Positions 14,624 to 32,737 of a DNA stretch of 41,564 nt are shown piece by piece (position 1 is the first letter of the stretch; every line of letters begins with the position of its first letter). Where the stretch lies: positions 1 to 41,564 of the forward strand of contig JAIOIH010000037.1 in the NCBI GenBank assembly GCA_019912395.1. Reading direction: 5' to 3'. The notes under the pieces are model-generated. The model was not told where the DNA came from. It did not search any database and saw only the letters and a program-made list of their open reading frames with translations. The position numbers and the translations under genes were made by a program. The DNA is from Flavobacteriales bacterium (GTDB lineage Bacteria > Bacteroidota > Bacteroidia > Flavobacteriales_F > PHOS-HE28).

Positions 14624-16558
14624 ATGCGCTCCTGCCTACTGTTCCTCCTGTTCGTCCTGCTTGCCGGGACGCAGGTGCGTGGCCAGCAGACATTGGATAC
14701 CATCGCGCTACACAATGTGGTGATCGTGGCTCCTCGACTGTCCGACTTCGCCTCCGGCCTCAAGACGCAGGCGATCGATAGCGCCACCATGGCCCGCTAC
14801 CGCTCGGCGGACCTTGGCACCTTGCTGGAGATGGAAAGTCCGATCTTCATCAAGTCCTACGGGCTGGGCAGCTTGGCCAGCAGTTCCTTTCGGGGCGGCA
14901 GTGCCAACCACACGGCGGTGCTATGGAACGGCTTCAACATCGGCGGCCCGATGAACGGGCAGATCGATCTTTCGCTGGTACCCGTGGGCATCGTGGACGA
15001 GGTGAGCATCCAATACGGCGGTGCCAGCGCGCTCTGGGGCAGCGGTGCGGTCGGTGGATCGGTGCTATTGAACAGCACGCCCGTTTTCGACAGCGGCCTC
15101 ACCGTGGATGCCGGTGCTTCGTTCGGCAGCTTCGGCGACCGGCGGCAGCACTTTCACTTCGTGCGCAGCACGTCGAAATGGATCTCGTCCATCAGTCTCT
15201 TCAACACGGCTGCACGGAATGATTTTCTCTACTCCAACCCGGAGCTGCTTGGTACGCCCGAGCAACGGCAGCGCAACGCCGAACTGGCACAGTACGGCCT
15301 GCTGGCGGAGAACCATTTCCGGATCGATCAACGGCAGCGGTTGAGCCTGCGCTTCTGGTACCAGAACAGTGACCGGAACATTCCACCGATACTGGCGCAG
15401 GCGAACAGCAGCGCCAACCAGCAGGACCAGAGCTACCGTGCCACGGCGGAATGGCAACGGCTCGGCACCAAGGTGAACAGCTACGTGCGCGCCGCTTACT
15501 TCGACGAACGGTTGCAGTGGTACGGCACCAGCACGGACAGCGCGGCCAACAGCCGGTCGCGCACCCTGATCGCCGAAGCGGAAATGCGCATCCGGATCGC
15601 CAGCGGGCAACGCATCAACATCGGGCTCAACAACACCTTCGCGGAGGCGCGCTCCGATGGTTTTCCTGAGCGACAGCAACAGAACCGCACGGCACTCTTC
15701 GCTTCGTACCGGATCAACACCACCAACGAGCGCTCCAACACCACGCTCTCGCTCCGGCAGGAAATGGTGGCGCAGGAACTCGTGCCGTTCACATGGTCAT
15801 TGGGCGGCGAATACGAGCTGCGGAAATGGCTCACCGCGAAAGCGAACGTCGCCCGTGTGTATCGCATCCCCACCTTCAATGACCTGTACTGGACGCCCGG
15901 CGGAAACCCGGACCTGCTACCGGAAAGCGGCTACAGCGGCGAGGCAGGGCTGGGCGCGAAAGGGCAGCTGCGGCCGGGCGTAAAGGCCACCGCCGAGGGC
16001 ACCTTCTTCCAGCGCACCATGGACAACTGGATCATCTGGCTACCCGCCGGAGCGTACTGGAGTCCGCAGAACATCATGAACGTATGGAGCCGGGGCGTGG
16101 AGTTGCGCGGCGAACTGGCGTGGCGCGTGGGCGGAGCTACCATGAAGCTGGCCGCCATGACCAACTACGTCGTCTCCACCAACCAAACAGCGAAGACGGT
16201 GAACGATGCTTCCGTGGACAAGCAGTTGATCTACGTGCCGATCTACAGTGGGCACGGCAAGCTCACGGTGCGCTACAAGGGCCTGCTCGCCACTGCGGGT
16301 GTGAACTACACCGGCTACCGCTACACCAGCACGGACAACCGTGAATACCTCGATCCCTACGTGCTGGTGAACGCTTCCGTCTCGTACCGCATGTCTGCAG
16401 GCAAAAAGTACATCGCCGACCTGATGCTGCAAGGCTTCAACCTCTTCGATGCGGACTACCAAGTAATGCTGGGCCGGCCCATGCCACTGCGGAATTTCCA
16501 GATCGGCCTCAGCGTGCGATTCAACCAAGCCAATTCAACTCCGGAAGAACAGCCATGA
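14624..16558 (+). CDS. btuB: TonB-dependent cobalamin receptor, BtuB-type
   Basis: This 644-residue outer-membrane protein has a signal peptide (LLAGTQVRGQ), a plug domain (~25-150) with an early segment LHNVVIVAPRLS acting as a TonB-box region, the plug signatures SSSFRGGSANHTAVLWNGF and SIQYGGASALWGSGAVGG, and a beta-barrel to the end. It is a member of the vitamin B12/siderophore receptor group. Its place behind a B12 riboswitch and its 4-bp overlap with a BtuG-like gene make cobalamin the likely substrate. The C-terminus carries a short extra tail (NSTPEEQP) after the last barrel strand. Confidence 0.9.
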   Translation: MRSCLLFLLFVLLAGTQVRGQQTLDTIALHNVVIVAPRLSDFASGLKTQAIDSATMARYRSADLGTLLEMESPIFIKSYGLGSLASSSFRGGSANHTAVLWNGFNIGGPMNGQIDLSLVPVGIVDEVSIQYGGASALWGSGAVGGSVLLNSTPVFDSGLTVDAGASFGSFGDRRQHFHFVRSTSKWISSISLFNTAARNDFLYSNPELLGTPEQRQRNAELAQYGLLAENHFRIDQRQRLSLRFWYQNSDRNIPPILAQANSSANQQDQSYRATAEWQRLGTKVNSYVRAAYFDERLQWYGTSTDSAANSRSRTLIAEAEMRIRIASGQRINIGLNNTFAEARSDGFPERQQQNRTALFASYRINTTNERSNTTLSLRQEMVAQELVPFTWSLGGEYELRKWLTAKANVARVYRIPTFNDLYWTPGGNPDLLPESGYSGEAGLGAKGQLRPGVKATAEGTFFQRTMDNWIIWLPAGAYWSPQNIMNVWSRGVELRGELAWRVGGATMKLAAMTNYVVSTNQTAKTVNDASVDKQLIYVPIYSGHGKLTVRYKGLLATAGVNYTGYRYTSTDNREYLDPYVLVNASVSYRMSAGKKYIADLMLQGFNLFDADYQVMLGRPMPLRNFQIGLSVRFNQANSTPEEQP

Positions 16559-17610
16559 TCCGAAACCACTTCCTGGGCAAGGCCCTTCCGCTCGCGCTGA
16601 TCCTGTTCATGCTGATCACGCTTTCCGCCTGCCGGAAGGACAAGCCGGAGCAACCGGAGGAAACGCCGATCACCATCGGCAACGATCACGGCGTGTACAT
16701 CACCAACGAAGGCAACTTCCAGTGGGGCAATGCCAAGGTGAGCTACTATGACATCGCCACGGACAACGCGACCGAGGACCTGTATCAACCTGCCAACGGC
16801 GTTGCGCTCGGCGACGTGTGCCAATCGATGGTCCTCTTCAACAACAAGGCGTACGTGGTGGTGAACAACTCGGGCAAAGTGGTAGTTGTGGATCCGAACA
16901 CCTTCGTGGCCACGGCCACCATCACGGGCTTCACCTCGCCGCGCTACTTCCTGCCGGTGAGCAACGGCAAGGCCTACGTCACCGAGCTGTCCGGTAACGC
17001 CGTGCGCGTGGTGGACCTGAACACCCATACCATCACCGGCAGCATCCCTTGCGCGGGCATGACGCAGGAGCTGGTGTTGGCCTACGGCAAGGCGTTCGTC
17101 ACCAATGAAAGCAAGGCCTACGTGTATGTGATCGATACCGCCACCGATGCGATCACCGACAGTGTGCCGGTGAGCCGCGGCGGAAATTCCATCGTGGAGG
17201 ATGCCAACGGAAAGCTCTGGGTGGCCTGCACCGGTGGGAGCGGCACGTCCCCGGCACTCTACCGCATCGATCCACAAACGGCGCAAGTGGAGGCCGCGTT
17301 TACTTACTCCAATTCAGCAACGAACCCGTGGCGCTTGCGGATCAACGGCAGCAACGACACGCTGTACTTCCTTCGAGGTGGTGTGTACCGCATGGCCATC
17401 ACCGATGCTGCGGCGCCCGTGTCGGCGTTCATCCCCACCGACGGCCGCAACCTCTACGGCTTGGGCATCGATCCGAACACCGGCACCCTCTACCTCGCCG
17501 ATGCCGTGGACTACGTGCAGCGCGGCATGATCTACCGCTATCGCCCCGATGGGACATTGCTGGGCACTTTTTTCGCGGGGATCATCCCGGGCGGGTTCTG
17601 TTTCCGGTGA
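16555..17610 (+). CDS. btuG: BtuG-like surface lipoprotein, seven-bladed beta-propeller (YncE/DUF5074-like)
   Basis: This 351-residue protein has a lipobox LSAC (Cys26) and acidic linker, then repeated ~45-residue blades such as KAYVVVNNSGKVVVVDPNT, KAYVTELSGNAVRVVDLNT and KAYVYVIDTATDAI. This is the YncE-like propeller seen in BtuG. In Bacteroides, BtuG binds cobalamin with high affinity on the cell surface and sits as a lid on BtuB. Here the gene overlaps btuB by 4 bp under a B12 riboswitch, which supports the same role. The symbol is by context and fold, not by tested identity. Confidence 0.85.
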   Translation: MIRNHFLGKALPLALILFMLITLSACRKDKPEQPEETPITIGNDHGVYITNEGNFQWGNAKVSYYDIATDNATEDLYQPANGVALGDVCQSMVLFNNKAYVVVNNSGKVVVVDPNTFVATATITGFTSPRYFLPVSNGKAYVTELSGNAVRVVDLNTHTITGSIPCAGMTQELVLAYGKAFVTNESKAYVYVIDTATDAITDSVPVSRGGNSIVEDANGKLWVACTGGSGTSPALYRIDPQTAQVEAAFTYSNSATNPWRLRINGSNDTLYFLRGGVYRMAITDAAAPVSAFIPTDGRNLYGLGIDPNTGTLYLADAVDYVQRGMIYRYRPDGTLLGTFFAGIIPGGFCFR

Positions 17611-18141: not shown

Positions 18142-18183
18142 CCTGCTCTACAGGCCGTGCCAGCATGGACTTGATCGCAAGAG

Positions 18184-18388
18184 TTCGCGTTAGTCCGGCA
18201 ATTGCTCAAGGATCGTACTCGTGGGCACCGTGCCTCCGATGTTCATCAGAATAGGATCACGGTCGTTCTGTATTCCGGTATACTTGACCACACCGCTAAG
18301 GCCAGTGTCCTCCTTGTAATAGCCGGGTGCGGTGGCCGTTGGGATCGCGATCGTTTTCGGCACCTGTGTATTTCAACTTGCCCGTCTG
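18184..18388 (-). pseudogene. Dead copy of the 3' end of the lysyl-oxidase-like gene
   Basis: This stretch is highly similar to 22553-22786, the stop codon and last ~75 codons of the large gene at 22561-26076, in the same orientation. It lacks 29 bp between two TCGCG repeats, which breaks the frame. It starts with the matching AGTTCGC just outside the stop codon and loses similarity near 18388. It encodes the NDRDPILMNxGGTVPTSTxL type of C-terminal module with no upstream gene. Confidence 0.85.
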
Positions 18389-18413
18389 TATTTGCTCGCG
18401 TAGCACAACGCGG

Positions 18414-18568
18414 GCACTCGCTCGGCTATTTGCCGAGTGAGTACATTCTAAGGCCTCCGGCCTGTCGCAGAACGGGTCTTGCAAAATTCAACAGGCGGGC
18501 CGGAGTCCCTATGCAGAACATGCCTACGGCACGCATGCGCACTCGGCAAAAAGCCGAGCGCGTGCGTG
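18414..18568. repeat. Palindromic element with two mirrored hairpins
   Basis: CGCTCGGC-tattt-GCCGAGTG (18419-18439) and CACTCGGC-aaaaa-GCCGAGCG (18540-18560) are each hairpins. They are also reverse complements of one another with one mismatch. Between them a second pair (CTCCGGCCTG and CAGGCGGGCCGGAG) gives an inner stem. The whole resembles a REP- or MITE-like unit, or a folded recombination site. The right hairpin lies just past the stop of the minus-strand gene at 18584 and could also end that transcript. Confidence 0.7.
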
Positions 18569-18583
18569 TGGGTGGAACAAATG

Positions 18584-19243
18584 CTATTCGCCGTCAGTAG
18601 GAATTGGATCATTATGAAGCACATCTCCTGTCGCTGAGAAAATGGAGCTATACCATTTTGGAACAGCTTCCAGTCCTTTACCCTCTAACCTCCCGACGAT
18701 CAGTACATATCTAACATCCTCAGGTTCCAAAAGACTTTCACTCGCCGCGCAGATCATTGCTTTGAACTGTTTCCGAGTTTCAGTGATAAGCGAACTGCTG
18801 TCTTTGCGGCCTGCGTCTTCAGTGTAAGTAATCAGCACCTTCAGCCTACTGCGAAGTAGTATCAGTTTGGCCATCTCTTCATAGCTTTTCCAGCATTCAC
18901 CCTCATGCTCGACCAGGATTTCATAAGTGGAGGGCCAGAAAAGACCCTTCCAATCTTTCTCCCAGTTTTCCCAACCAGGCGGGGTTCCCCAATTCGAATC
19001 CTTCTTCGCGACAACAAGGTCAACCTTCCATTCTTCCGTACGGTAGCGCCAAGATTTTCCAAGGTTCTTGACAAGATGGTCGCCCAAAGGACTGTCCTTT
19101 TCGGAGGCATGAGCCTCTCCGAGGATGCGAAGTGTCCAAGGCTTGTTTTTCTCGTGCCATGCGTCGTGCCATGTTTCACCGTTAAGGAACTTCTCCTCAC
19201 CAACGAACTCCCTCCAAACGCAAATGAATTTCTCCGCTTTCAT
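18584..19243 (-). CDS. Unknown protein with PD-(D/E)XK-like motif, partner of the AAA+/M41 gene
   Basis: This 219-residue protein has a Trp-rich N-terminal half. A central pattern reads K-V-D75-L-V-V, then Y-E108-I-L-V-E112-H-E114, then a helix SYEEMAKLILLRSRLKVLITYT. This order (Asp, Glu-x-Glu, helix, strand) resembles a PD-(D/E)XK nuclease core, but the canonical Lys is not evident, so enzymatic activity is uncertain. Its ATG overlaps the stop of the AAA+/peptidase gene by 4 bp, so the two are translationally coupled and likely act together. It is the last gene of the unit, followed by the hairpin near 18550. Confidence 0.75.
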   Translation of the reverse strand: MKAEKFICVWREFVGEEKFLNGETWHDAWHEKNKPWTLRILGEAHASEKDSPLGDHLVKNLGKSWRYRTEEWKVDLVVAKKDSNWGTPPGWENWEKDWKGLFWPSTYEILVEHEGECWKSYEEMAKLILLRSRLKVLITYTEDAGRKDSSSLITETRKQFKAMICAASESLLEPEDVRYVLIVGRLEGKGLEAVPKWYSSIFSATGDVLHNDPIPTDGE

Positions 19244-21171
19244 GCTTCAGTCAAATTGAGGGTTCCAATGTATTGCGATTCTTCAGCAGGGTTCAGCAGC
19301 TCCTCCAGCTCGCGCATGTTCAGCGAGCCTTTTTCCCGCAGGCGCTCCACACAACGATCGAAGAGTTCTTGCTGCCCTTCCAACGTGGCTATCGCCATGG
19401 CTTCGGCGGCTTCCATCCATTCGCGGGCTTGCCTATCCACCGCCGCCTGTGCCGTGCGAATACCCCCACTTGGATCTGCCGAGGGATGCTCCGCGAAATA
19501 CAGCGGCATGCCGCCCATGCCATGGTTCTTTACCATGTTCAGTGCGAAGTCCGTGGCCTGTTGTATGTCCCGTGTGCTTCCAGTAGACACGCCATCAGCC
19601 CCGAAGTGTATCCGCTCGGCGACCCATCCGCCCAACAGGCTCGCCAGTTCCGGAATGATCTCCGACCGCAGGTGCGGCATCTTGGGGCGACGGTCCCAAG
19701 CCACGAAGCCGACCACCTGTGGATCGCGCGTGCGGGCGCAGACCTGCAATGGCTTTTTGCCGCAGAGCAACATTCCGCAGAGCAAGTGTCCCACCTCATG
19801 CACGGCGGTCCGCGTGATCTGGTTTTCTCCCGTGTCGTGTGGGTCGTGGCGGACCACGGGTAATGGAAGTACGGCATCGTGTTCTTTACCATCCACCATA
19901 AGGCGGGCCACGTACCGGCCATCGGTGATGCCGAACGCAATGCTTGTGGCGGCTTCCGCACTAGGCAGGTCCATGGTTTGGGAAAGCAGCAGAGGCACGG
20001 TGTTCTGGACGGCTTGCACTACGGGCCGCGCTCCCAGCACGGCGATGGCGGATGTGCTGCGCAGATGGTCCACCAGAGCGTCATCCACGGTGATGCTGCG
20101 TTCGCAATGTGCCGAGAGCTTGCCGGTGAGTTCGTTCACTGCGTGCTGTACCAGTTTGTCCACCGTGGCTTTTCCGATGGGTGGGAACACAACGTGCGAC
20201 GCGCCTAATCGTCCTACTTGTTCAATGCGGAATAGCTCCGTCAACGCATTCTGGACACCGGCCAAGCCGATGTCGCGGTGGCGGTGCAGAAGCACATCGG
20301 GATCCAGTTCTGCCAGGGCTTCCTTCTCGGCTGTGTAGAGTTCATCCAAGTTGCCGGAAAGGATCACCAGCATCTTACTGGCATCCACCACCCGTGCGCG
20401 TTGGCTGTTGCGGAGCAACTCTTCAGTCCAGCTGAGGATCTCCTTCTCATTCATGGTGGAAAGACGGTCCTCGATCTCGGCGACCGATGGCTGGGGTTCA
20501 AGGTGCATTCCCCTGAAGGAGTCCCAGATGTCGTCGGGTATCCCCCAAGTTGCGTTCTGCGATCTGCTGTAGTGGGTTTGGACGAGTTCCTTGAATTTTT
20601 CGTGCCCCTCTACCACGCGCCCGCTGTGGATCCGCACACCGGCCCGCATCGCACGGGAGAACCGCCCTTCAAAGTCGATCACGTTCGATGCATGATGGAA
20701 ATGCGGCCATGTGATGATACGCCCCGAATCCAAGAGTTCCCATAATTCGCGAAGCGCGGTTGCTTCCTCTATATCAATGCCGTTTTCCTTGGTGCGGGCA
20801 CGTTGAAATTCATCCACTACAAGGACGAAAGGAGTGCCTGTCTGTAGCTTCTCAATACGCTCTATGAACGAACCAAGCCAGTATTCCTTCTGGCATTCCC
20901 CGGCATCGAGCCAGTAGGTGCGGTCCTCAAGTTCGGCGGCCTTCACCATGGAACGAATCAAGCTGCTCTTTCCCGTGCCGGTCATGCCCCAGAGGCCGAT
21001 GACTTGCGGACGGGACTGGGTTTCGGCGAAGCGGTACCATGGTGCGAAGGCATCGAGCAGTCGCTGGATCTCCGTGTCGATGCCGAAGTGATTTGTGCGT
21101 AGCCGATCGAACAGTCCGTTGAGTTTTGCGGTGCGATCGGCGAGGCTGGCGGGAATGGGTGAAGTGTGCAT
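19240..21171 (-). CDS. AAA+ ATPase fused to an FtsH-like (M41) zinc metallopeptidase
   Basis: This 643-residue protein has an AAA+ module with Walker A GMTGTGKS (62-69), Walker B VLVVDE (116-121), sensor-1 Asn274 (LSGNLDE) and a GAR sensor 2 (380-382). An M41-type peptidase follows: HEVGH (458-462) and the family block GGWVAER ... STGSTRDIQQAT with the third zinc ligand Asp535. There are no membrane segments, unlike FtsH, and the AAA+ part is only distantly FtsH-like (closer to Clp/HslU by the GARP sensor). Start 21171 is preferred: AATCTTGC lies 3 bp upstream, whereas the ATG at 21195 falls inside the palindrome. Flanked by a WYL regulator and a nuclease-like partner. Confidence 0.88.
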   Translation of the reverse strand: MHTSPIPASLADRTAKLNGLFDRLRTNHFGIDTEIQRLLDAFAPWYRFAETQSRPQVIGLWGMTGTGKSSLIRSMVKAAELEDRTYWLDAGECQKEYWLGSFIERIEKLQTGTPFVLVVDEFQRARTKENGIDIEEATALRELWELLDSGRIITWPHFHHASNVIDFEGRFSRAMRAGVRIHSGRVVEGHEKFKELVQTHYSRSQNATWGIPDDIWDSFRGMHLEPQPSVAEIEDRLSTMNEKEILSWTEELLRNSQRARVVDASKMLVILSGNLDELYTAEKEALAELDPDVLLHRHRDIGLAGVQNALTELFRIEQVGRLGASHVVFPPIGKATVDKLVQHAVNELTGKLSAHCERSITVDDALVDHLRSTSAIAVLGARPVVQAVQNTVPLLLSQTMDLPSAEAATSIAFGITDGRYVARLMVDGKEHDAVLPLPVVRHDPHDTGENQITRTAVHEVGHLLCGMLLCGKKPLQVCARTRDPQVVGFVAWDRRPKMPHLRSEIIPELASLLGGWVAERIHFGADGVSTGSTRDIQQATDFALNMVKNHGMGGMPLYFAEHPSADPSGGIRTAQAAVDRQAREWMEAAEAMAIATLEGQQELFDRCVERLREKGSLNMRELEELLNPAEESQYIGTLNLTEA

Positions 21172-21174
21172 ACC

Positions 21175-21182
21175 GCAAGATT
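21175..21182 (-). promoter_or_regulatory. Putative -7 promoter element of the AAA+/M41 operon (AATCTTGC)
   Basis: AATCTTGC followed by GGT and ATG resembles the TATCTTGC element at 7128-7135, with one change. It places the palindrome at 21190-21214 over the spacer and -33 region. Confidence 0.35.
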
Positions 21183-21189
21183 CAGAAAC

Positions 21190-21214
21190 CACCATGACAA
21201 AACATGTCGTGGTG
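21190..21214. promoter_or_regulatory. Palindromic operator candidate for the WYL regulator
   Basis: CACCATGAC (21190-21198) and GTCGTGGTG (21206-21214) form 9-bp arms with one mismatch around a 7-bp spacer. The site lies between the WYL gene stop and the AAA+ start, overlapping the presumed -33 region. WYL regulators of defence loci (BrxR, CapW) bind such inverted repeats. The link is inferred from position. Confidence 0.5.
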
Positions 21215-21224
21215 AAAACCGCGG

Positions 21225-22118
21225 TCACTTTCCGTACTGCCGGGCGGCTTCCAAGTGCGCCTGCTTGATCTCCTTGGCCAAGTACTTCGGCTCCAGCACA
21301 CGCACGGCATTGCCCAAGGCGAGGATGATCTGCCGCAGCTCGAAGTTGGCCATCACGAACAGCGTGATGGTGGCTCCGTCCTTGTCCTCTTCCTCCACCT
21401 GTTGGGAAGGATGCAGCGGCAGCGCCTTCGCGTATGGCGCCTGCATCGCATTGAAGCGCAGCACGATCCGCTCGGGCACTTCGGGGCTGGTGTCCACGCC
21501 GATCGCTTGGTCGTAGAGTTCGGCGATCTTCCTGTCGTACCGCTTGAATCGCTTGGCCAGCATGGTGATCTCTTTGATGCGGTCCAGGCCAAGTGCGATG
21601 GGGCGCACATGCTCCGCGCTCGGCCCGAGCACATACCAACGCCCGCGATACTCCTTGAGCAAATGCGGCTGGATGCGGAATCTCTTTGCGGTATCGGCGT
21701 AAAATTTCTGGTACAGCACCTTCACCTCCCTCCGTTCGCGGATGGCGCGTAGCAGCGGCGCAATGTGCTTGATACCGCGCAAGCGCCCCAGTTCCTCGAA
21801 ATGAATGTATCGGCGCAGCTCGCCGAGCCCTTGGCCGCCATCGCGCACCAGCTCCAACAGTTGGGCGCGCTCCAGCAGTTGCATCAGACCCGGCAGGTCC
21901 TCTTCATCCCCGGTGATGCTATAAGTGTTGCTGCTTCGGTCGTACACGGTATCCACACCGAATTCGTCGCGCAGTTCAGCGAGGTCGCGTTGTATGGTCC
22001 GGTAGTTCAGCTCAAAACCTTCGTCCGACAAATGCTCGCTCAACTCGGCGAGCGTTGGCGCGTGCTTGAGCCGCTCCAGGATGAGCAGGTAGCGTTTGAG
22101 CTTTCCTTGTTGGGACAT
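21225..22118 (-). CDS. WYL-domain transcriptional regulator
   Basis: This 297-residue protein has an N-terminal winged helix-turn-helix (LAELSEHLSDEGFELNYRTI, QRDLAELRDEFG), then a WYL domain (~120-200, with KVLYQKFY, RIQPHLLKEYRGRWYVLG) and a C-terminal WCX extension (~210-297). WYL domains sense ligands, often nucleic acid or nucleotides, and commonly control phage-defence loci. It is 53 bp upstream of the AAA+/M41 gene on the same strand, with a palindrome between. It may autoregulate and control the downstream pair. Confidence 0.92.
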   Translation of the reverse strand: MSQQGKLKRYLLILERLKHAPTLAELSEHLSDEGFELNYRTIQRDLAELRDEFGVDTVYDRSSNTYSITGDEEDLPGLMQLLERAQLLELVRDGGQGLGELRRYIHFEELGRLRGIKHIAPLLRAIRERREVKVLYQKFYADTAKRFRIQPHLLKEYRGRWYVLGPSAEHVRPIALGLDRIKEITMLAKRFKRYDRKIAELYDQAIGVDTSPEVPERIVLRFNAMQAPYAKALPLHPSQQVEEEDKDGATITLFVMANFELRQIILALGNAVRVLEPKYLAKEIKQAHLEAARQYGK

Positions 22119-22338: not shown

Positions 22339-22560
22339 TCAGCCGTAGTTCGGATTCGGTTTCTTCAATTCCAGCCCACTGATATCGGGTTGACTATCGT
22401 TGTACGCGATGGTCCCGAACAGGGTCGCGGCGGCCAACAGTACTTCATCCCTTTCTGCTTTTTGCCCGCTCGGTCGTGAGCGCAAGAGATCCAGCAGTCG
22501 CTTCACTTCGGTCAACACGGTAGCATCATCGGAGGAAACCAGTTGTTGGACCAGTTCGCA
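22339..22560 (-). pseudogene. Antitoxin-like gene remnant lacking its start
   Basis: Directly after the TAA stop of the large gene, and in the same frame, 73 codons without a start read CELVQQLVSSDDATVLTEV, then KRLLDLLRSRPSGQ and GLELKKPNPNYG, ending at TGA. The ELxxQLxSSDDxxVLxEVxRLLDL helix is typical of the N-terminal part of type II antitoxins. The missing N-terminal residues were probably replaced by the 3' end of the large gene, so the junction looks like a recombination scar. No toxin gene follows. Confidence 0.6.
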
Positions 22561-25500
22561 TTAGTCCGGCAATTGCTCAAGGATCGTGCTGGTGGGTACC
22601 GTGCCTCCAAGGTTCATCAGTATGGGATCACGGTCGTTCTGCATTCCAGTATACTTGACCACGCCGCTTAAGCCAGTGTCCTCCTTGTAATAGCCGGGTT
22701 GGGTGGCCGTTGGGATCGCGCCTCCGATCACGTTCAGGATGGGGTCGCGATCGTTTGCGGCACCGGTGTATTTCAACTTGCCGTCCGTCACCACGTTACC
22801 GCTCCAGAGCATCATTTTGCCATCGAATGGAACGCGGGCATTCGTGCCCCACGTGGAGGTCAGCGCGCTTCGCAGGTCAACGATGGCAGGTGTTGCGGAG
22901 AGGGCCACCGGGTCCAGTGTCATCGCCCCGAAATGGTTCCGGTGCCTCACTGCAAGCTGGTAGTTACCCGCAGGGAGCTGCACTTGGACCGGAGCGGTCC
23001 CATCAAGCCCTACGATGTCCCCATCCCGCTGCAACAAGGCGCTTCGCGTGGCCAGCACGGCATATGGTGTGTTGGCGGAGCGCACCTGCACAAGCACCCA
23101 GTCCACGATGGCATCGGGACCGGTCACCATGAACACGGCGGGTGCCACTTGTTCCCCGCCACCCCCGTTCACCTGTGTGAAGCCGAGCGCGGAATAGGGC
23201 TCCGTCAGCGGGATCAAGGACAAGGCGCGCAAGTCGTCGCGCATGAGCTGATCGGTGGTGGAGTAGGCGCCCTGCAACCACACCTTCGGGCGTACGGCGA
23301 CCGTGTTCGGGATGAACGCGCAGCCGTCCACGATGCTGGTGGAAACGTTATTGGCCTTGTCGTTCACAATGTCGGTGATGCCGGCGATGCAGACGGTTGA
23401 GCTTGTGAGGGATGAATAGTTGATCCGGCAAAGCGGGATAAAATCAGCGTTCTTGATCAGGGAACTGTCGATATAGGAAAGGCCAATCACGCGCGAGCCA
23501 CCGGGTATGGACTCCGTTGCGATATCCCCGGCAAGGCCGGGGACGAGGTTCTGTACGCTTTGGATGGTAAGCCCGCTCATGGTGAATTCATATCCCAGCA
23601 CTCGGCAGTCGGGGTTGCGCACCAAGATGTCCACGGTCTTGGCGACAGGGTCGATGCTGCCCAGCTTCAGGTCCACTTGGCTTGCCGCATCCACCCAGCC
23701 GCGTGGAAATTCGGACCAGGGATGGTAATGGACCACGTGTTCGGTCTGGTCGTGGATATTTTGCTGATTGTAGCAGTTCGCCAATAGTGCGGCATCGGTC
23801 ACGGTAATGGCATTGTCCCCGTTCAGGTCATTGCACGGGGTCGGTGAAATTGCATTGTTGAGGATGGCGGTCACATATTCCTGCGCATCCAACTGGGTCC
23901 TGTTCCCATCATTGTTGAGGTCACCGGCCTTTGCAGAACCGTTGCATGCGCCGGTGCAATCGAAACGGGCGTCACCGAAAGGTTGCCCGAGGCAGTCCGT
24001 GTATGGCGGGCAGTCATTCTCCACGGTGAACGAGAGAACGTCCTGCGCGTCACGTGCAATGTTCAAACAGACCTGGGCGAAATTGTTGGAATAGTCCAGT
24101 TCATGTCTGCCGAGCGCATCCGGCGCATGTTGCCAATTGGTGCGGAGAACCAGGGTGTATTGCCCGGCAGGTACGTCCGTAATATCGATCCAGTTGCATG
24201 TGGTGCCGGAGCTGTAGATATCATAGCACCCTTTGCTGATGCCCATGTTGCTGCATCCGTACTGGGCGGTGAACCCCGAGTTGCAGCCCACGTCCATCAC
24301 GCAGAACCCGTTCTTGAAGCCCACCGGGATGGCGTTTCCGAGAGGGTCGAAGAGGATATAGTCCGCATAGCCGGCATAGTGCGCGTGGCCGTGGCAATTG
24401 TCGAAGTTGAACATGTCCGGCTGCGTACTTGGGTTGCCGATGTAATAATCGGTGTTCCCGATATTCTCGATCTTGGTGGTGAAACGTAGGACCTTGCGCA
24501 GCCCGAGCGCACGGGTGCAACCTTCCGCAGGTGCGCAGTTATCGGTGATGTTCACTGTACTTAGGTAGATGCTGCTGGCAAGGGCACTTTGGCTGATGAT
24601 GAGGTCCGGACCATCCGGGCAGGCGGGGTCACCGGGCGGGATGCAGCAGCCTGGGCAGGCGATGGTGGCCAAGGGGTCGTAGTTGCAGGAACCCGGATCC
24701 ATGCATCCTTCCACCGGCCCGTTGTAAATGATGGAAAAGGTGATCTGCCCGTTGCAATCACCTGCGTTGTCGCCCACCCTTAGATGGTGGACCGTTCCAC
24801 CTGGCATGTTGGCGTTGACCACGGCCTGGGTGCCGCAACCACCATTGTTGTCATCGGCGAACGTAGCCCCTTCCACGCCGTCGTTCAGTGTGACCTGGTT
24901 GCAGGCCATGTCATACAACCAAAGCCGCGTGTCGCAGGAATTGCTTCCGCACGTGGTAATGGAATAGGACCCGGTCTGGGGCGGCGTGAAGTCGTACCAT
25001 GCTTCGGTGCTCGGTGTAGTGACGGTGGCAAGTGTTACGGGATAGGATGAGCCGATAGGTGCCAAGGTCAACGGCAATGGGGATGAACACGAAAATCCGG
25101 GAGCGCAGTTGAACGTCGTTTCCTCGAATGACCCGAAGGTGCCGCCGGAAAAGATCAGGACCTGGTCCAGGTAGATCGCGTAAGCACCATATCCGTAACT
25201 GTTGTGGTAAATGCCGTCACCGGCGGTGTCATTGATGCGGAAGATCAAGCAGGTTCCGGTGGGTACGCATAGGGTGGTGCCCGTGGAGTTGTCGGCCGCA
25301 AGGACCGTGTTGGTGGCGCCGTTCTTCAAGGTCCATGTGGTTTCTTGCGGATAATTGTCCGCCACGATGTCGATACGTACCCGGCTTTGGCCGACTGGGC
25401 AACTATAATCGCAGGAACCGTCATTGATGTTCACCGACGGCACGTAGTTACTGGCGGTGACCTCGTTGCAACCGAACAGGGGTGACAGGTTCCCGACGAA

Positions 25501-26076
25501 CACATCATCGATGGCGATATCGCTGCGCTCCCCGCTGCCGGTCACCGCCCGGAACCGCAGGCGGAGGTTCGTTTGCGCGGCATAGGGGGAAAGGTCCAAC
25601 CAACCTTCTTTCCAATACTGGCCTTGATCCCCGCTAGCGCTCCAGAGGTCTTGGATGATCGATCCGTTCACGTCCAGGTCCACGGTCAAAGTGCCCATCT
25701 GGTTGCCGCGCATGGAGTACCAAAAGGTGAGGTATGGTGATGGGAGGGCGGACAAATTGAAACAAGGTGAGTTCAGGATCGCGGTCTTACCGGGTGTGTT
25801 GCCGACACCTGAGGCCTCCACGTACAGGTACGTGCCCGAGGTGCTGTTCGAGGTATGATCGCCGATGGGGCCGGTGGCTGCGGTGGGCGTGCCGTTCTTG
25901 TCCACCCACCAGTTCAGGTCGTCGCCCGTATCGTTGGCCCAGTTATTTGCGAACGTACCGGGAGTGCCGACAGTGAATCCGCTGAACGTTTGATCCGAGG
26001 GGAACGAGTTAATGCATTGCGCGGCCATGGTACCGGCGATGGCAAACAGGCCGATGGAAGAGAAAATGCGACGCAT
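22561..26076 (-). CDS. Large secreted multidomain protein with lysyl-oxidase-like domain and dockerin-like repeat
   Basis: This 1171-residue protein has a signal peptide (GLFAIAGTMAAQ), a MAM/jelly-roll-like region (~25-200), Cys-rich spacers and a pre-peptidase-like beta domain (~330-450). A lysyl-oxidase-like domain follows (~500-690) with the copper-site pattern NCHGHAHYAGYADY (~560-572), then GCSNMGISKGCYDIYSSGT and the CNWIDITDVPAGQYTL strand. A dockerin-like pair of D-x-N-x-D loops (DLNNDGNRTQ, DLNGDNAITV; ~705-755) comes next. It ends in a C-terminal module with two copies of KYTGxxNDRDPIL. Lysyl oxidases crosslink or deaminate lysine amines using copper; activity here is untested. The start at 26076 gives the signal peptide. 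The C-terminal module is not the common type-A sorting domain. Confidence 0.85.
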   Translation of the reverse strand: MRRIFSSIGLFAIAGTMAAQCINSFPSDQTFSGFTVGTPGTFANNWANDTGDDLNWWVDKNGTPTAATGPIGDHTSNSTSGTYLYVEASGVGNTPGKTAILNSPCFNLSALPSPYLTFWYSMRGNQMGTLTVDLDVNGSIIQDLWSASGDQGQYWKEGWLDLSPYAAQTNLRLRFRAVTGSGERSDIAIDDVFVGNLSPLFGCNEVTASNYVPSVNINDGSCDYSCPVGQSRVRIDIVADNYPQETTWTLKNGATNTVLAADNSTGTTLCVPTGTCLIFRINDTAGDGIYHNSYGYGAYAIYLDQVLIFSGGTFGSFEETTFNCAPGFSCSSPLPLTLAPIGSSYPVTLATVTTPSTEAWYDFTPPQTGSYSITTCGSNSCDTRLWLYDMACNQVTLNDGVEGATFADDNNGGCGTQAVVNANMPGGTVHHLRVGDNAGDCNGQITFSIIYNGPVEGCMDPGSCNYDPLATIACPGCCIPPGDPACPDGPDLIISQSALASSIYLSTVNITDNCAPAEGCTRALGLRKVLRFTTKIENIGNTDYYIGNPSTQPDMFNFDNCHGHAHYAGYADYILFDPLGNAIPVGFKNGFCVMDVGCNSGFTAQYGCSNMGISKGCYDIYSSGTTCNWIDITDVPAGQYTLVLRTNWQHAPDALGRHELDYSNNFAQVCLNIARDAQDVLSFTVENDCPPYTDCLGQPFGDARFDCTGACNGSAKAGDLNNDGNRTQLDAQEYVTAILNNAISPTPCNDLNGDNAITVTDAALLANCYNQQNIHDQTEHVVHYHPWSEFPRGWVDAASQVDLKLGSIDPVAKTVDILVRNPDCRVLGYEFTMSGLTIQSVQNLVPGLAGDIATESIPGGSRVIGLSYIDSSLIKNADFIPLCRINYSSLTSSTVCIAGITDIVNDKANNVSTSIVDGCAFIPNTVAVRPKVWLQGAYSTTDQLMRDDLRALSLIPLTEPYSALGFTQVNGGGGEQVAPAVFMVTGPDAIVDWVLVQVRSANTPYAVLATRSALLQRDGDIVGLDGTAPVQVQLPAGNYQLAVRHRNHFGAMTLDPVALSATPAIVDLRSALTSTWGTNARVPFDGKMMLWSGNVVTDGKLKYTGAANDRDPILNVIGGAIPTATQPGYYKEDTGLSGVVKYTGMQNDRDPILMNLGGTVPTSTILEQLPD

Positions 26077-26093
26077 GATGGTGGATTTTACCC

Positions 26094-26101
26094 GCAAAGT
26101 A
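26094..26101 (-). promoter_or_regulatory. Putative -7 promoter element of the lysyl-oxidase-like gene (TACTTTGC)
   Basis: TACTTTGC lies 17 bp before the ATG at 26076 and fits the same motif as other starts in the window. Confidence 0.4.
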
Positions 26102-26445: not shown

Positions 26446-27453
26446 ATGGACAACGAACGTTACGCCTCCTCCCCGAACTTCGAGAACGGCAAGTTCAAGA
26501 ACCTGTTGCCTACCAACATGTCAATGTCCGCCGGCGACATGATGAAGACGTTGGCCGGGTTCATTGCAGGAGGCGAGGGACGCGCGCCGAAGCAGAAGAT
26601 CCACGTACTGCATCCGGACCCCAGGGTGATCGCTTCTCCCAACGGAAGCACTCGCTTGGTCTGGTTCGGGCACTCGGCGTTCCTGTTGCAGATCGACGGC
26701 TTGAACCTGCTGATCGATCCCATGTTCGGCTCCACGCCGGCGCCCTATCCGTGGATGGGCCGGTCCCGCTTCACCGACGGATTGCCCATCGCCATCGCCG
26801 ATCTGCCGGAGATCGATGCCATCCTGCTCTCACACGATCATTACGATCACTTGGACTATCGCTCCATCTTGGCACTGAAGACAAAGACAAAGGAATTCTT
26901 CGTGCCCTTGGGGGTAGGCATGCATCTGCGTTCATGGGGGATCGAGCCTTCGCGTATCCACGAGCTGGACTGGTGGGACGAGACCGGACTTGCGCACTTG
27001 CACCTAGCACTCACACCCGCACGCCACTTTTCCGGCCGCGGACTTACGGACCGCTTCTCCACGCTCTGGGGCGGTTGGGTGATCCAAGGGAAAAGGGACA
27101 ACATCTACTTCAGCGCGGACAGCGGCTACGGTCCGCACTTCGAACAGATCGGTGCCAAGTACGGACCGTTCGGCTTTGCGATGATCGAGTGCGGCCAGTA
27201 CAACGAGAAGTGGGCCGACATTCACATGCTGCCGGAGCAATCGGCACAAGCTGCGGTGGATGTACGAGCGAAGGTGATGATGCCGATCCACTGGGGCAGC
27301 TTCGCGCTGGCCATGCATACGTGGACCGATCCCGTGGACCGTGTAACGAAACAAGCGGATACGCTGGGGATGCCGATCATCACGCCGCGCATTGGCGCTG
27401 TGGTCGCACTGGATGCGTTGGGAGCTTTCCACGAGCGGTGGTGGCGGGAGTAG
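26446..27453 (+). CDS. MBL-fold metal-dependent hydrolase, NAPE-PLD/UlaG-like
   Basis: This 335-residue protein has the metallo-beta-lactamase signature SHDHYDHLD (H130, H132, D134, H135). A preceding strand pair VWFGHSAFLLQIDGLNLLIDPMF is typical of the NAPE-PLD-like branch. Further ligands are likely in TPARHFSGR, SADSGYG and PIHWGSF. No signal peptide is seen. Bacterial members hydrolyse phosphodiester or amide bonds of lipids or sugar phosphates; substrate unknown. It is followed after 49 bp by the two-component regulator, which has its own promoter element. Confidence 0.9.
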   Translation: MDNERYASSPNFENGKFKNLLPTNMSMSAGDMMKTLAGFIAGGEGRAPKQKIHVLHPDPRVIASPNGSTRLVWFGHSAFLLQIDGLNLLIDPMFGSTPAPYPWMGRSRFTDGLPIAIADLPEIDAILLSHDHYDHLDYRSILALKTKTKEFFVPLGVGMHLRSWGIEPSRIHELDWWDETGLAHLHLALTPARHFSGRGLTDRFSTLWGGWVIQGKRDNIYFSADSGYGPHFEQIGAKYGPFGFAMIECGQYNEKWADIHMLPEQSAQAAVDVRAKVMMPIHWGSFALAMHTWTDPVDRVTKQADTLGMPIITPRIGAVVALDALGAFHERWWRE

Positions 27454-29941: not shown

Positions 29942-30055
29942 CCCGCTACGGCGCCTCGACGGGCCTGATCGAATAGTGGTCGCCGCACTCACCTGGGAAT
30001 AGCAGGTCGGTGCGGCGGCTGCTTGTCGGGAGATGGTATTCTCCATCATTCGCAA

Positions 30056-30063
30056 TACCTTGC
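30056..30063 (+). promoter_or_regulatory. Putative -7 promoter element of the M36 protease gene (TACCTTGC)
   Basis: TACCTTGC lies 52 bp before the ATG at 30116, matching the TAnnTT(G)C variant seen at other starts. Confidence 0.4.
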
Positions 30064-30115
30064 AGTGGCTGATGCTGGCTCCAGCGAAGCTCCGCTACCC
30101 AAACCCCTCGTGCCA

Positions 30116-32737
30116 ATGAACCCTTTTTTACGCCGTGCCTTTCTGGTCCTTCTGGTTGCCATCACCAGCGCATTCACCTTCGCGCAGAACAGCGAAAGCG
30201 CCGTGCGCCAGTGGATGCTGGAGCAATATGCCGATCATGGCCTCACGAAGAGCGATGCGACCGATTGGCGCATCACCGACCAGTCCACGGATAAGCGCGG
30301 CATCACCTACCTGTACATCCGCCAGGAAGCGAACGGGTTACCGGTACACGGGGCCGTGGCCAACTTCGCATTGAGGAACGGCGAGGTGATCAACTTCGGG
30401 AACCGGCTGCAAGCCGATGTTTCCGGCAGGGTGGGTTCTTCTTCGCCCGGCATGCATGCGGCGGATGCAGTGCGCTCGGCAGCGCGCCAGCTGGGCCTTG
30501 CCGCGACCGATGTGCGTGTGACGGAACGAATATCGCACACGGAAGTGGTGCTTGGCCCCAGCGGCATTTCCCGCGATCCCATTCCCGCGGAACTGGTCTA
30601 TCAAGTAGTGGATGAAGGAGCGATCCCCTTGGCGTGGGACCTGGTGATCCGTGAGCTGGGCGGCGAACATTGGTGGCATGTGGCGGTGGATGCACAAAGC
30701 GGCAAGATCCTCCGTCAGATCGATTGGATCGTGAGCTGCACCGTACCCGCGGGCTTGGGCCGGCCGGGATACAATGCAGCGGTGGACCTGGTGCAGGCCG
30801 CGCCGCCGGTGCCCGCTGCGGCAGCCATGCCCCCGCCCGATGGTTCCGGCTATCGCGTGTTCCCGTTCCCTACGGAAAGTCCCGGCCATGGCCCCCACAT
30901 TTTGGTGAACGATCCCGCGGACCCGGTGGCCTCACCCCATGGCTGGCACGATACCGACGGCATGCCCGGCGCGGAATACACCATCACCCGTGGCAACAAT
31001 GTCTACGCTGGTGAAGACTGGGCCGACACGGACGTGATCGGCTACAGTCCGGATGGTGGCAGCGGCCTGATCTTCGATTTTCCGTTCACACCCCCGCAAG
31101 ATCCCGATGATTACATCGATGCGGCCATCACCAACTTGTTCTACACCTGCAACGTGCTGCACGACGTGTGGTACCACTACGGCTTCGATGAGGAGAGCGG
31201 GAACTTTCAGCAGACCAACTACACGGGTACCGGCCTCGGCGAGGATGCGGTCTATGCCCAAGCACAGGATGGCAGCGGTACCAACAACGCCAACTTCGGC
31301 ACGCCGGAGGACGGATCCCCCGGGGCGATGCAGATGTACCTGTGGCGTACCACCGAGGCCGATTCCTTTATCGTGAACAGCCCCATGGCGATCGCGGGTG
31401 ATTACACCATCGAGGTGGGAGGCTTCGGGCCTACGCTAACGTCCGGGGGCATTACGGCCGACCTGGTGCTGGTGCAGGATGATACCGCCCCGGCAAGCGA
31501 TGGCTGCGAGACCATCGTGAATGCGGCGGCCTTGTTCGGCAAGATCGCGGTGGTGGATCGCGGGTCGTGCACCTTCGTCAGCAAAGTACTGGCGTTGGAA
31601 GCTGCTGGCGCCATCGCCGTGATCGTGGTGAACAATGTGGGCGGAGCGCCGATCACCATGGGCGGCACCGATCCCGGTGGCATCACCATTCCGTCCGTCA
31701 TGGTATCCATGGCCAACGGGCAGACCATCAAGAACGCCATGCTGAACGGGGTGGTCAACGGCACGCTGAGAGGAGTAGGCACGGAGAGCTTGCGCGATAG
31801 CGACTTCGACAATGGCATCATTGCGCATGAGTATGGACATGGGGTCTCCAACCGCCTCACCGGTGGCCCGAACAATGTGGACTGCCTCGGGAACGATGAA
31901 CAAATGGGCGAGGGTTGGAGCGATTGGATGGGCATGGTGCTCACCATGCAAGCAGGTGACATCCCGCAAACAGGCCGAGGCGTAGGCACCTTCGTGAAGG
32001 CTGAGGGGCCCGACGGCCCGGGCATCCGGCCGGCGCCCTATTCCACCGACATGGCGGTGAACCCGTACACCTACGGCATCACCAACACCGGAGGTTTCCA
32101 AGGAGTGCATGCACGTGGCTTTGTATGGGCCACCATGCTCTGGGACCTCACATGGGACCTGGTGGACGAGGAAGGCTTCGACCCGAACATGTACACCGGT
32201 ACCGGCGGCAACAACACCGCCATGCGCTTGGTGATGGACGGCCTGAAGTTGCAACCCTGCGAGCCGGGCTTTGTGGATGGACGCGATGCGATCCTGCTGG
32301 CCGATGAACTGAACTACGGCGGTGTACACAGCTGCCTCATCTGGAAAGCCTTTGCCCGCCGCGGCCTCGGTTACAGTGCAACCCAAGGCAGCTCCCTCTC
32401 CTCGAACGATCAGGTGGAGGCCTTCGACATTCCGGCGGCCTGCCTATCGGTGGGCGTTCAGGAGGTAGCGCAACGACCCAACAGCTTCATCGTTGCGCCC
32501 GGTCCGGGATCCGCGCAGATGCAGCTGATGCCGGGTTCCGAGCTGGGCACGGATGCCACGGTCAGGTTGATCGGCATGGACGGCCGTTTGCTGCGCGAAG
32601 TGCGGATGCCGCGCGGGAGCACAACACTAACGCTCGACATGAGCAGCTTGGCACATGCGGCCTACATCGTGGAACTGGCTGCGGAGAACACACGCCCGGA
32701 GCGCAAGCGTTTCGTGTACTATATCACCGGATGGTGA
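30116..32737 (+). CDS. Secreted fungalysin-type (M36) metallopeptidase with PA insert
   Basis: This 873-residue protein has a signal peptide (VAITSAFTFAQ), an FTP-type propeptide (~25-200) and an M36 catalytic region with HEYGH (571-575) and the third ligand Glu599 in EGWSDWMG. A protease-associated domain (~450-545, FGKIAVVDRGSCTFVSK ... IPSVMVS) interrupts the catalytic part before the zinc motif. A C-terminal T9SS-like beta domain (~790-873) ends KRFVYYITGW. It is a digestive surface or extracellular protease. The start at 30116 provides the signal peptide; an earlier in-frame ATG would bury it. Confidence 0.9.
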   Translation: MNPFLRRAFLVLLVAITSAFTFAQNSESAVRQWMLEQYADHGLTKSDATDWRITDQSTDKRGITYLYIRQEANGLPVHGAVANFALRNGEVINFGNRLQADVSGRVGSSSPGMHAADAVRSAARQLGLAATDVRVTERISHTEVVLGPSGISRDPIPAELVYQVVDEGAIPLAWDLVIRELGGEHWWHVAVDAQSGKILRQIDWIVSCTVPAGLGRPGYNAAVDLVQAAPPVPAAAAMPPPDGSGYRVFPFPTESPGHGPHILVNDPADPVASPHGWHDTDGMPGAEYTITRGNNVYAGEDWADTDVIGYSPDGGSGLIFDFPFTPPQDPDDYIDAAITNLFYTCNVLHDVWYHYGFDEESGNFQQTNYTGTGLGEDAVYAQAQDGSGTNNANFGTPEDGSPGAMQMYLWRTTEADSFIVNSPMAIAGDYTIEVGGFGPTLTSGGITADLVLVQDDTAPASDGCETIVNAAALFGKIAVVDRGSCTFVSKVLALEAAGAIAVIVVNNVGGAPITMGGTDPGGITIPSVMVSMANGQTIKNAMLNGVVNGTLRGVGTESLRDSDFDNGIIAHEYGHGVSNRLTGGPNNVDCLGNDEQMGEGWSDWMGMVLTMQAGDIPQTGRGVGTFVKAEGPDGPGIRPAPYSTDMAVNPYTYGITNTGGFQGVHARGFVWATMLWDLTWDLVDEEGFDPNMYTGTGGNNTAMRLVMDGLKLQPCEPGFVDGRDAILLADELNYGGVHSCLIWKAFARRGLGYSATQGSSLSSNDQVEAFDIPAACLSVGVQEVAQRPNSFIVAPGPGSAQMQLMPGSELGTDATVRLIGMDGRLLREVRMPRGSTTLTLDMSSLAHAAYIVELAAENTRPERKRFVYYITGW

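Follow-up and report, generated by a model that had tools for sequence, protein, structure and literature searches.

The window, by which is meant the whole stretch of 41,564 nucleotides that was analysed from this Flavobacteriales genome, carries a three-gene cassette on the minus strand, with the following features in and beside it.

21228..22118 (stop codon to 21225), minus strand: WYL-domain regulator, 297 aa, with WYL and WCX domains (Pfam; recurrence of the WYL gene)
21190..21214, minus strand: predicted WYL operator, an imperfect inverted repeat whose core recurs in relatives
19243..21171 (stop codon to 19240), minus strand: chimeric soluble AAA+ protease, 643 aa, ATG at 21171
19882..21171, minus strand: predicted Clp-type (HCLR) AAA+ module, residues 1-430 (fold comparison, ClpB_D2-small, conserved columns)
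20422..20721, minus strand: variable insert, residues 151-250, between Walker B and sensor 1 (comparison of the window with L002)
19297..19818, minus strand: M41 zinc peptidase domain, residues 452-625, with H458, E459, H462 and D535 (PF01434)
18587..19243 (ORF 18584-19243), minus strand: partner protein, 219 aa, possible PD-(D/E)XK-like nuclease
18386..18565, no strand assigned: multi-copy palindromic REP-like element (matches in its own genome and in L002, RNA fold)
18182..18349, minus strand: duplicated 3' end fragment of the neighbouring ORF 22561-26097, beside the cassette (identity)

The three genes are real and lie where the preliminary description had placed them (WYL gene 21225-22118, AAA+/M41 gene 19240-21171, partner gene 18584-19243, all minus). 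At 19240-19243 the protease stop codon shares 4 bp with the start of the partner gene, and 53 bp separate the WYL stop codon from the protease start codon. The gene debris and the palindromic element that had been seen beside the cassette were also found: the 168 bp at 18182-18349 are 91% identical to 22553-22720, and 18386-18565, with an RNA fold z of -5.2, belongs to a repeat family that matches the genome at 14 places, its own position and incomplete copies counted. A matching copy of this element also lies 3' of the cassette in L002, the locus of a relative whose protease is 84% identical, where the same three genes occupy another slot in the same chromosomal region.

The protease had been described as a soluble AAA+ ATPase fused to an FtsH-type peptidase. 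The peptidase part of this description stood, as the M41 domain matched PF01434 with 71.3 bits (cut-off 29.9; 1.3e-19), and the Walker A motif GMTGTGKS with K68 and the HEVGH motif at 458-462 are both present. Among 35 aligned family proteins, H458, E459, H462 and D535 are invariant and K68 nearly so. The ATPase part, on the other hand, is of the Clp (HCLR) type rather than the FtsH type. Residues 1-430 are predicted to fold like Clp-type ATPases, the model aligning to ClpB, ClpC, ClpX, ClpA and Skd3 with VIA-align Z of 20.5-23.0, and the ClpB_D2-small domain exceeded its Pfam cut-off, as did general AAA models including PF00004. Conserved columns of the family alignment support the ATPase motif residues, which we take to be Walker B D120 and E121, sensor-1 N274, Arg-finger R321 and sensor-2 R382. 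Contrary to this assignment, Foldseek hits ordered by E-value had FtsH chains on top. The protease differs from ClpB, ClpC, ClpX and Skd3 in having its own M41 peptidase and an insert of about 100 residues before sensor 1, and a pore loop of the G-Y-V-G type (G-x-[aliphatic]-G) between Walker A and B was not found in 21 bacterial and 4 viral sequences; threading by the protease is uncertain for this reason.

As in FtsH (TIGR01241) and AFG3/YME1, an M41 domain with HExxH and an Asp follows the AAA+ module, but the cassette protease has a Clp/HCLR ATPase, no membrane helices, an adjoining WYL gene and a variable partner. The absence of membrane helices reported earlier was upheld by a best 19-residue hydropathy of 1.08, whereas the two ordinary FtsH proteins that this genome encodes reach 2.24 and 2.34. 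The whole-chain FtsH model TIGR01241 gave 55.9 bits, below its cut-off of 600, with 451-621 as the best stretch. The ATPase fold, this family score and the hydropathy together rule out an FtsH paralogue. The protein is predicted to combine a Clp-type ATPase and an FtsH-type zinc peptidase in one chain. A soluble chain of this composition was absent among the literature matches listed, which cover subscription journals thinly. The preliminary description had not recognised the gene set as a named system, and indeed none of four libraries (Pfam, NCBIfam, PADLOC and PHROGs) holds the whole-protease family or any match to the partner. The PHROG matches of the protease were to single domains only, and PADLOC-DB 2.0.0 returned no significant match, with PDC-S01 (8.5e-4) and mad8 (1.6e-3) aligning to the region of the ATP site only.

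Full-length relatives of the protease were present in 19/395 genomes of the class and 6/44 of its own order, the window counted, and were not found in the other 38 of these 44; the cassette is accessory and patchily distributed. M41 peptidases are housekeeping enzymes in most bacteria, and an ordinary accessory quality-control protease would fit a genome that also has two standard FtsH genes. We hold this to be the least probable explanation, with hardly any weight, as the protein is not FtsH, has a Clp-type ATPase without membrane helices and is not found in most genomes of the order.

The comparison covered 21 bacterial protease loci, with one peptidase-only match (G380) outside this set and the G639 locus, which was obtained twice (L002 and L105; the proteins agree), counted once. 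Gene calls in the relatives were mechanical longest ORFs, with spurious ORFs mended by eye in G598, G402 and G691. The family also occurs on 37 contigs catalogued as viral (34 distinct proteins), 22 of them longer than 100 kb, and four viral proteins group inside the bacterial part of the protease tree. Viral contigs of jumbo-phage size are among its carriers. When the window protease was compared by tblastn to plasmids and phages, no place covered 80% of it, the matches listed being to the peptidase part only. One candidate, an 'AAA family ATPase' on a Pseudomonas plasmid, was an ordinary FtsH whose match to the profile is confined to the peptidase part.

The regulator matched the Pfam models WYL (2.3e-12) and WCX (2.8e-12), with a weak sub-threshold Arg_repressor match at residues 21-50 of its N-terminus. 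A WYL gene lies close by in 16/21 bacterial protease loci and in 0/37 viral loci. The palindrome noticed earlier between the WYL and AAA+ genes is real, and its core, CGACANNNTTTGKCR, recurs in distant relatives. The candidate operator reads CACCACGACA-TGTTT-TGTCATGGTG, with 10-bp arms, one mismatch and a 5-bp spacer. With at most one mismatch, the dyad CGACANNNTTTGKCG precedes the protease gene in 12 of the 16 loci with a WYL gene, in none of the 5 without and in 0/34 viral loci, and for this reason it is likely to be the operator of the WYL protein. The pattern was drawn up after 10 of the 12 sites were known, those of L109 and L116 coming from the scan, and the arms pair perfectly in only 5/12 sites. 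The site is absent from four WYL loci, and G402, the sixth locus of the window's own genus, has none and was excluded from the spacer alignment. The spacer is written as CGACA-N3-TTTG. In the 4.13-Mb genome the core matches at this one site, and a backwards control pattern likewise matches once.

According to the available text of PMC9122601, the WYL protein BrxR binds 11-bp repeats with a 5-bp spacer, a geometry that the candidate operator resembles. In the same text GmrSD is one of the effectors near which the WYL/BrxR regulators of defence islands occur, as in the cassette loci, although here a protease cassette would be controlled, from a site that lies between the WYL gene and the protease gene. 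The protease could also be a phage enzyme that has been domesticated and carries cargo genes, its partner functionally unlinked to it. This would explain the viral contigs, which lack the WYL gene, and the four viral proteins that group with the bacterial ones. Against this, the bacterial loci are marked by the WYL gene and the operator, and the partner shares 4 bp of its gene with the protease gene and has diverged together with the insert, which makes such an origin very improbable.

For the 219-aa partner, the D...ExE pattern of the preliminary description was confirmed: D75, E112 and E114, like E108 and K126, do not vary among four sequences, one of them that of the window. The acidic set D75, E112-x-E114 together with K126, with no K at the canonical D...(D/E)xK place, might be that of a PD-(D/E)XK-like nuclease. 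The AF2 model was unusable (pLDDT 37.5), and the nuclease fold is putative. No partner match was obtained among PDB sequences either, and no homologues were confirmed in viral contigs. The 219-aa family had been described as part of the unit. It is not a constant member, being present in 2/45 genomes of the order, and its relatives stand alone, without the protease, in two genomes (G452 and G643). The recurrent unit is the WYL regulator plus the AAA+/M41 protease, with a variable instead of a constant partner.

The partner gene varies by locus, being the 219-aa protein, a UDG-like protein, GmrSD or DUF2779. A GmrSD gene lies 3 bp downstream of the protease gene in G223, a UDG gene sits between the WYL and protease genes in G544, and DUF2779 is near the protease in four loci. 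The G552 protein, also assigned to a UDG-like family, has no Pfam match itself; of its six relatives, the five put to the test all had UDG as best match, below the cut-off. For proteins of G598, G601 and G402 (302 aa), which have no Pfam match, the UDG likeness was judged by eye only, and direct BLASTP with the proteins of G552 and G598 gave a weak match (E 0.006). PDDEXK_4 was found in two neighbour proteins (among the 25 commonest Pfam families listed), and an ADP-ribosylglycohydrolase lies near the protease in G402. In G700, a UVR-like segment was seen by eye. No confident partner could be assigned in G053, G194, G601, G596, G478 and G691.

Some WYL proteins, such as PafBC and DriD, sense DNA damage, and the cassette could be a DNA-damage or stress module in which a soluble ATPase-metalloprotease strips or cuts DNA-bound proteins while a glycosylase or nuclease treats the lesion. 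Such a module would be the bacterial equivalent of the pair of SPRTN/Wss1 and p97. The DNA-enzyme neighbours, including the UDG-like proteins and the UVR-like segment, and the WYL switch with its candidate operator agree with this. It is nevertheless rather unlikely, given the patchy presence (6/44 genomes), the GmrSD restriction enzyme in G223, and the partner swapping and co-diverging insert, which suit a conflict better.

When the window is compared with L002, the ATPase insert and the partner show parallel divergence. The identity was 43/100 for the insert and 107/215 for the partner, compared to 498/543 for the rest of the AAA+ protein and 276/297 for the WYL protein, in this one close pair and with insert limits (151-250) fixed after the windowed comparison had been seen. 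Fourfold sites differed at 12/23 positions in the insert and 31/43 in the partner, but at 54/271 in the rest of the AAA+ gene and 30/136 in the WYL gene. This co-divergence suggests that the insert recognises the partner. An addiction module, with a toxic partner, the protease as antidote and a cassette that maintains itself or its island, would also account for it, as well as for the 4-bp overlap, the different slots in the two related genomes and the duplication at the flank. Partner homologues occur without the protease, however, and an ATPase of 643 aa would be a rare kind of antidote, just as a WYL switch is not typical of such modules, so that this explanation appears quite improbable.

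The reading to which we give even odds (about 0.5) is that the insert recognises the partner and that the protease controls a DNA-attacking effector with an anti-phage role. The WYL protein would bind the dyad before the protease gene and set the expression of protease and partner, as its conserved site suggests. The variable insert would take the co-encoded partner as client, in keeping with their co-divergence, and the partner would be a DNA-attacking effector, interchangeable among loci, with a putative nuclease in the window. The protease would hold this effector inactive or at a low level in uninfected cells and free it upon infection, or would activate it by cleavage. In either case the effector would attack the DNA of the phage, or that of the cell.

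The preliminary description had proposed to check how often protease loci lie next to defence genes, and no clear enrichment was found in PADLOC beyond WYL itself. The 138 neighbours (145 ORFs picked, 12 judged spurious taken out, 5 put in, of which one is a DrmB fragment and another a WYL gene) matched 102 families, compared to 6 families for 129 control genes (of 154 ORFs picked in 14 regions, one in a protease-free genome and another some 10 kb away from a protease locus). This surplus consists mostly of WYL models and of many models matching one protein. With 25 of the 102 near families listed, about 11 distinguishable non-WYL proteins lie near the protease, one of them the DrmB fragment put in by hand, compared to at most 7 in the control. 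Enrichment is for these reasons not established either way. The Pfam listing likewise covers the 25 most frequent families of each set. Individual loci have known defence genes nearby, namely DrmB, PDC-S26 and HerA-like.

We know of no AAA+ protease in Brig1 or GmrSD systems. The DNA glycosylase Brig1 (available text of PMC11078745) and the type IV GmrSD enzymes are akin to the UDG-like and GmrSD neighbours of the cassette, and an ADP-ribosylglycohydrolase lies beside brig1 in that text, as it does near the protease in G402. In the accessible parts of PMC10924106, Dodola DolB has Clp-type ATPase domains (PF07724/PF10431), and IetA of IetAS has AAA and FtsH extracellular domains. The cassette differs from both in its single chimeric chain with M41 and in its partners; neither DolB nor IetA models were among the PADLOC matches, a library that may not include them. 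FtsH-ternary systems (PMC7159879, available text), which are predicted conflict systems, resemble the cassette in that an AAA+ component of theirs is named after FtsH. They are built on MoxR-vWA, together with a pair of FtsH-type ATPase domains, and neither feature was noticed in the cassette.

The cassette may represent an undescribed kind of anti-virus system. More tentatively, and with odds below even, it could belong to a new immune class, in which a Clp/M41 hybrid hub serves plug-in DNA-destroying effectors matched to a swappable insert, under a WYL protein and a CGACA-N5-TGTCG-like operator. The putative protease unites two AAA+ protease lineages, the Clp-type motor and the FtsH-type peptidase, in one soluble chain. 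The operator candidate opens a search for the regulon and the trigger, and the co-diverging insert and partner permit a direct genetic test of client recognition. If the protease does control swappable DNA effectors, regulated proteolysis would be a plug-in control layer of immunity.

The cassette at 18584-22118 was confirmed to carry, all on the minus strand, genes for a WYL regulator (297 aa), an AAA/M41 protease (643 aa) and a partner (219 aa), with the WYL and protease genes separated by 53 bp and the protease and partner genes overlapping by 4 bp. Hydropathy detected no membrane helix in the protease, in agreement with the soluble enzyme of the preliminary description. By Pfam, residues 452-625 matched M41 (1.3e-19) and residues 334-398 ClpB_D2-small (8.9e-5), and general AAA models exceeded their cut-offs in the N-terminal part; the FtsH family model covered the peptidase alone, at 55.9 bits versus a cut-off of 600. 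With an AlphaFold2 model from 35 sequences (mean pLDDT 82.7, pTM 0.72), Foldseek put FtsH chains at the head of the list when hits were ordered by E-value, with ClpB NBD2 appearing at rank 14 and below. VIA-align of residues 1-438 against ClpB, ClpC, ClpX, ClpA and Skd3 gave Z 20.5-23.0 with rmsd 2.9-5.6 Å; against FtsH chains both domains were superposed, with Z 21-22 and rmsd near 8 Å. Because of these scores and comparisons, we take the protease to combine a Clp-type motor and an FtsH-type peptidase. The M41 half of the fusion proposed earlier was thus retained, but the motor would be Clp-type rather than FtsH-type. D120, E121, H458, E459, H462 and D535 were invariant in an alignment of 35 family proteins. 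A GYVG-type pore loop was looked for in 21 bacterial and 4 viral family sequences and not found, so classical threading by this protease is not assured.

Profile searches of 395 genomes of the class detected full-length protease relatives in 19, a count that includes the window's own genome; among 44 genomes of the order to which the window belongs there were 6 with such a relative, every one from the same genus. Further full-length relatives were present in G265 and in G223, the latter among 244 genomes of another class, in which a second match (G380) was peptidase only. Contigs catalogued as viral held 37 chimera loci (L065-L101), 22 of them on contigs >100 kb; these chimeras have HExxH intact, and the iterated WYL profile found a regulator in none of the 37. 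A tree branch with support of 99/96 divided 16 WYL-linked bacterial proteins from 30 of 34 viral proteins; the other four viral proteins fell with the bacterial set, and a single bacterial protein, that of G265, fell with the viral set. In G265 (L036:2609-5574) the chimera gene abuts and follows a DUF4407 gene, and there is no WYL gene.

Applied to 20 fetched bacterial loci, the same WYL profile identified the regulator in 15, and it also did so in the window. Alignment revealed CGACA-N3-TTTG upstream of the protease gene in five of six own-genus loci, with a variable remaining spacer; the sixth (G402) has a different gene order and lacks it. Far relatives carry the same upstream element. The pattern CGACANNNTTTGKCG was scanned for in up to 350 bp around each protease start, with 200 shuffles per locus. 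At ≤1 mismatch it occurred in 12 of 16 WYL loci (no site exceeding 1% in shuffles), having been written after 10 of these 12 sites had already been seen, and in none of 5 loci without WYL or of 34 viral loci, where the best match had 3 mismatches. One locus without WYL (G468, on a 4.6-kb contig) had a best match with 2 mismatches (1% in shuffles). The 5-bp arms paired perfectly in five of the 12 sites, as CGACA/TGTCG (L034, L120) or CGCCA/TGGCG (L108, L109, L116). The WYL repressor BrxR is reported to bind 11-bp repeats that are 5 bp apart (PMC9122601); the window's candidate site has 10-bp arms with 5 bp between them. Because the operator core has a single match in the window's genome, the cassette's own site, this cassette may be the only target of the regulator.

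The partner had been called nuclease-fold-like; its D...ExE residues are kept in four family sequences (D75, E108, E112, E114 and K126 being common to all), but the window partner yielded no library match and no usable structure model. The order of these residues would fit a PD-(D/E)XK core in which the lysine has shifted position. Two of the four sequences stand without a protease (L128:8649-9521 and L129:8878-9609), that in L128 beside genes resembling, by eye, a PIN-type toxin pair. A 241-aa relative (47%, BLASTP) adjoins the protease in G639. Elsewhere the neighbours differ: a GmrSD enzyme 3 bp downstream of the protease in G223 (PADLOC HEC-06), a UDG between WYL and protease in G544 (1.6e-5), a UDG-like protein in G552 (likeness via relatives, itself without a Pfam match), and DUF2779 adjoining the protease in G458 and G585 and near it in G544 and G478. 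G691 has a DrmB fragment upstream of WYL, cut by the contig end; in G700 the WYL and protease genes are separated by genes for two small proteins, judged by eye to be PD-(D/E)XK-like and UVR-like; no clear name attaches to the neighbours in G053 and G194. In G429 (L117:5574-9655) the chimera, without WYL, follows genes resembling rtcB and prfH by eye, an RNA-repair-like context. In L119 (10219-13060) the chimera is preceded by genes for an ADP-ribosylglycohydrolase, a peptidyl-arginine deiminase and a protein that is UDG-like by eye, an arrangement with some likeness to the surroundings of brig1 (PMC11078745).

The gene debris and palindromic element claimed around the window cassette were both located, as a duplicated fragment and a REP-like repeat:

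18182-18349 and 22553-22720: duplicated fragment, 3' end of ORF 22561-26097 and its copy across the cassette
18386-18565: REP-like palindromic element, 14 genome matches including itself, strong predicted hairpin fold

The REP-like element also lies 3' of the cassette in L002, the G639 locus. The window genes 16555-17610 and 26446-27453, which are 8.8 kb apart with the cassette between them, have counterparts that sit side by side in L002; there the cassette occupies a different slot of this region, past the counterpart of 30023-32737.

The window and L002 proteases are 84% identical. Residues 151-250, an insert whose limits were chosen after inspecting windowed identities, are 43% identical versus 92% in the rest (p about 1e-26), and 12 of 23 fourfold sites differ there versus 54 of 271 elsewhere in the protease (p 0.001). 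The partners share 107 of 215 residues and differ at 31 of 43 fourfold sites, and the WYL proteins share 276 of 297 and differ at 30 of 136; 1.2 kb of conserved sequence lies between insert and partner. Since both are far more divergent than the rest, fourfold sites included, insert and partner look, in this one genome pair, like older alleles in a younger backbone. The simplest reading of this pair would be mutual recognition of insert and partner, or recognition by both of a common third party.

A role in defence is favoured by the WYL switch, the GmrSD and UDG neighbours, the patchy distribution and partner swapping, and by DrmB, PDC-S26 and HerA-like genes, each in single neighbourhoods. 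Against this, the comparison of neighbouring genes with control loci (PADLOC) leaves enrichment established neither way, and we know of no phenotype for the cassette. On balance, we give about even odds (roughly 0.5) that the cassette acts against phage through a protease-controlled DNA effector.
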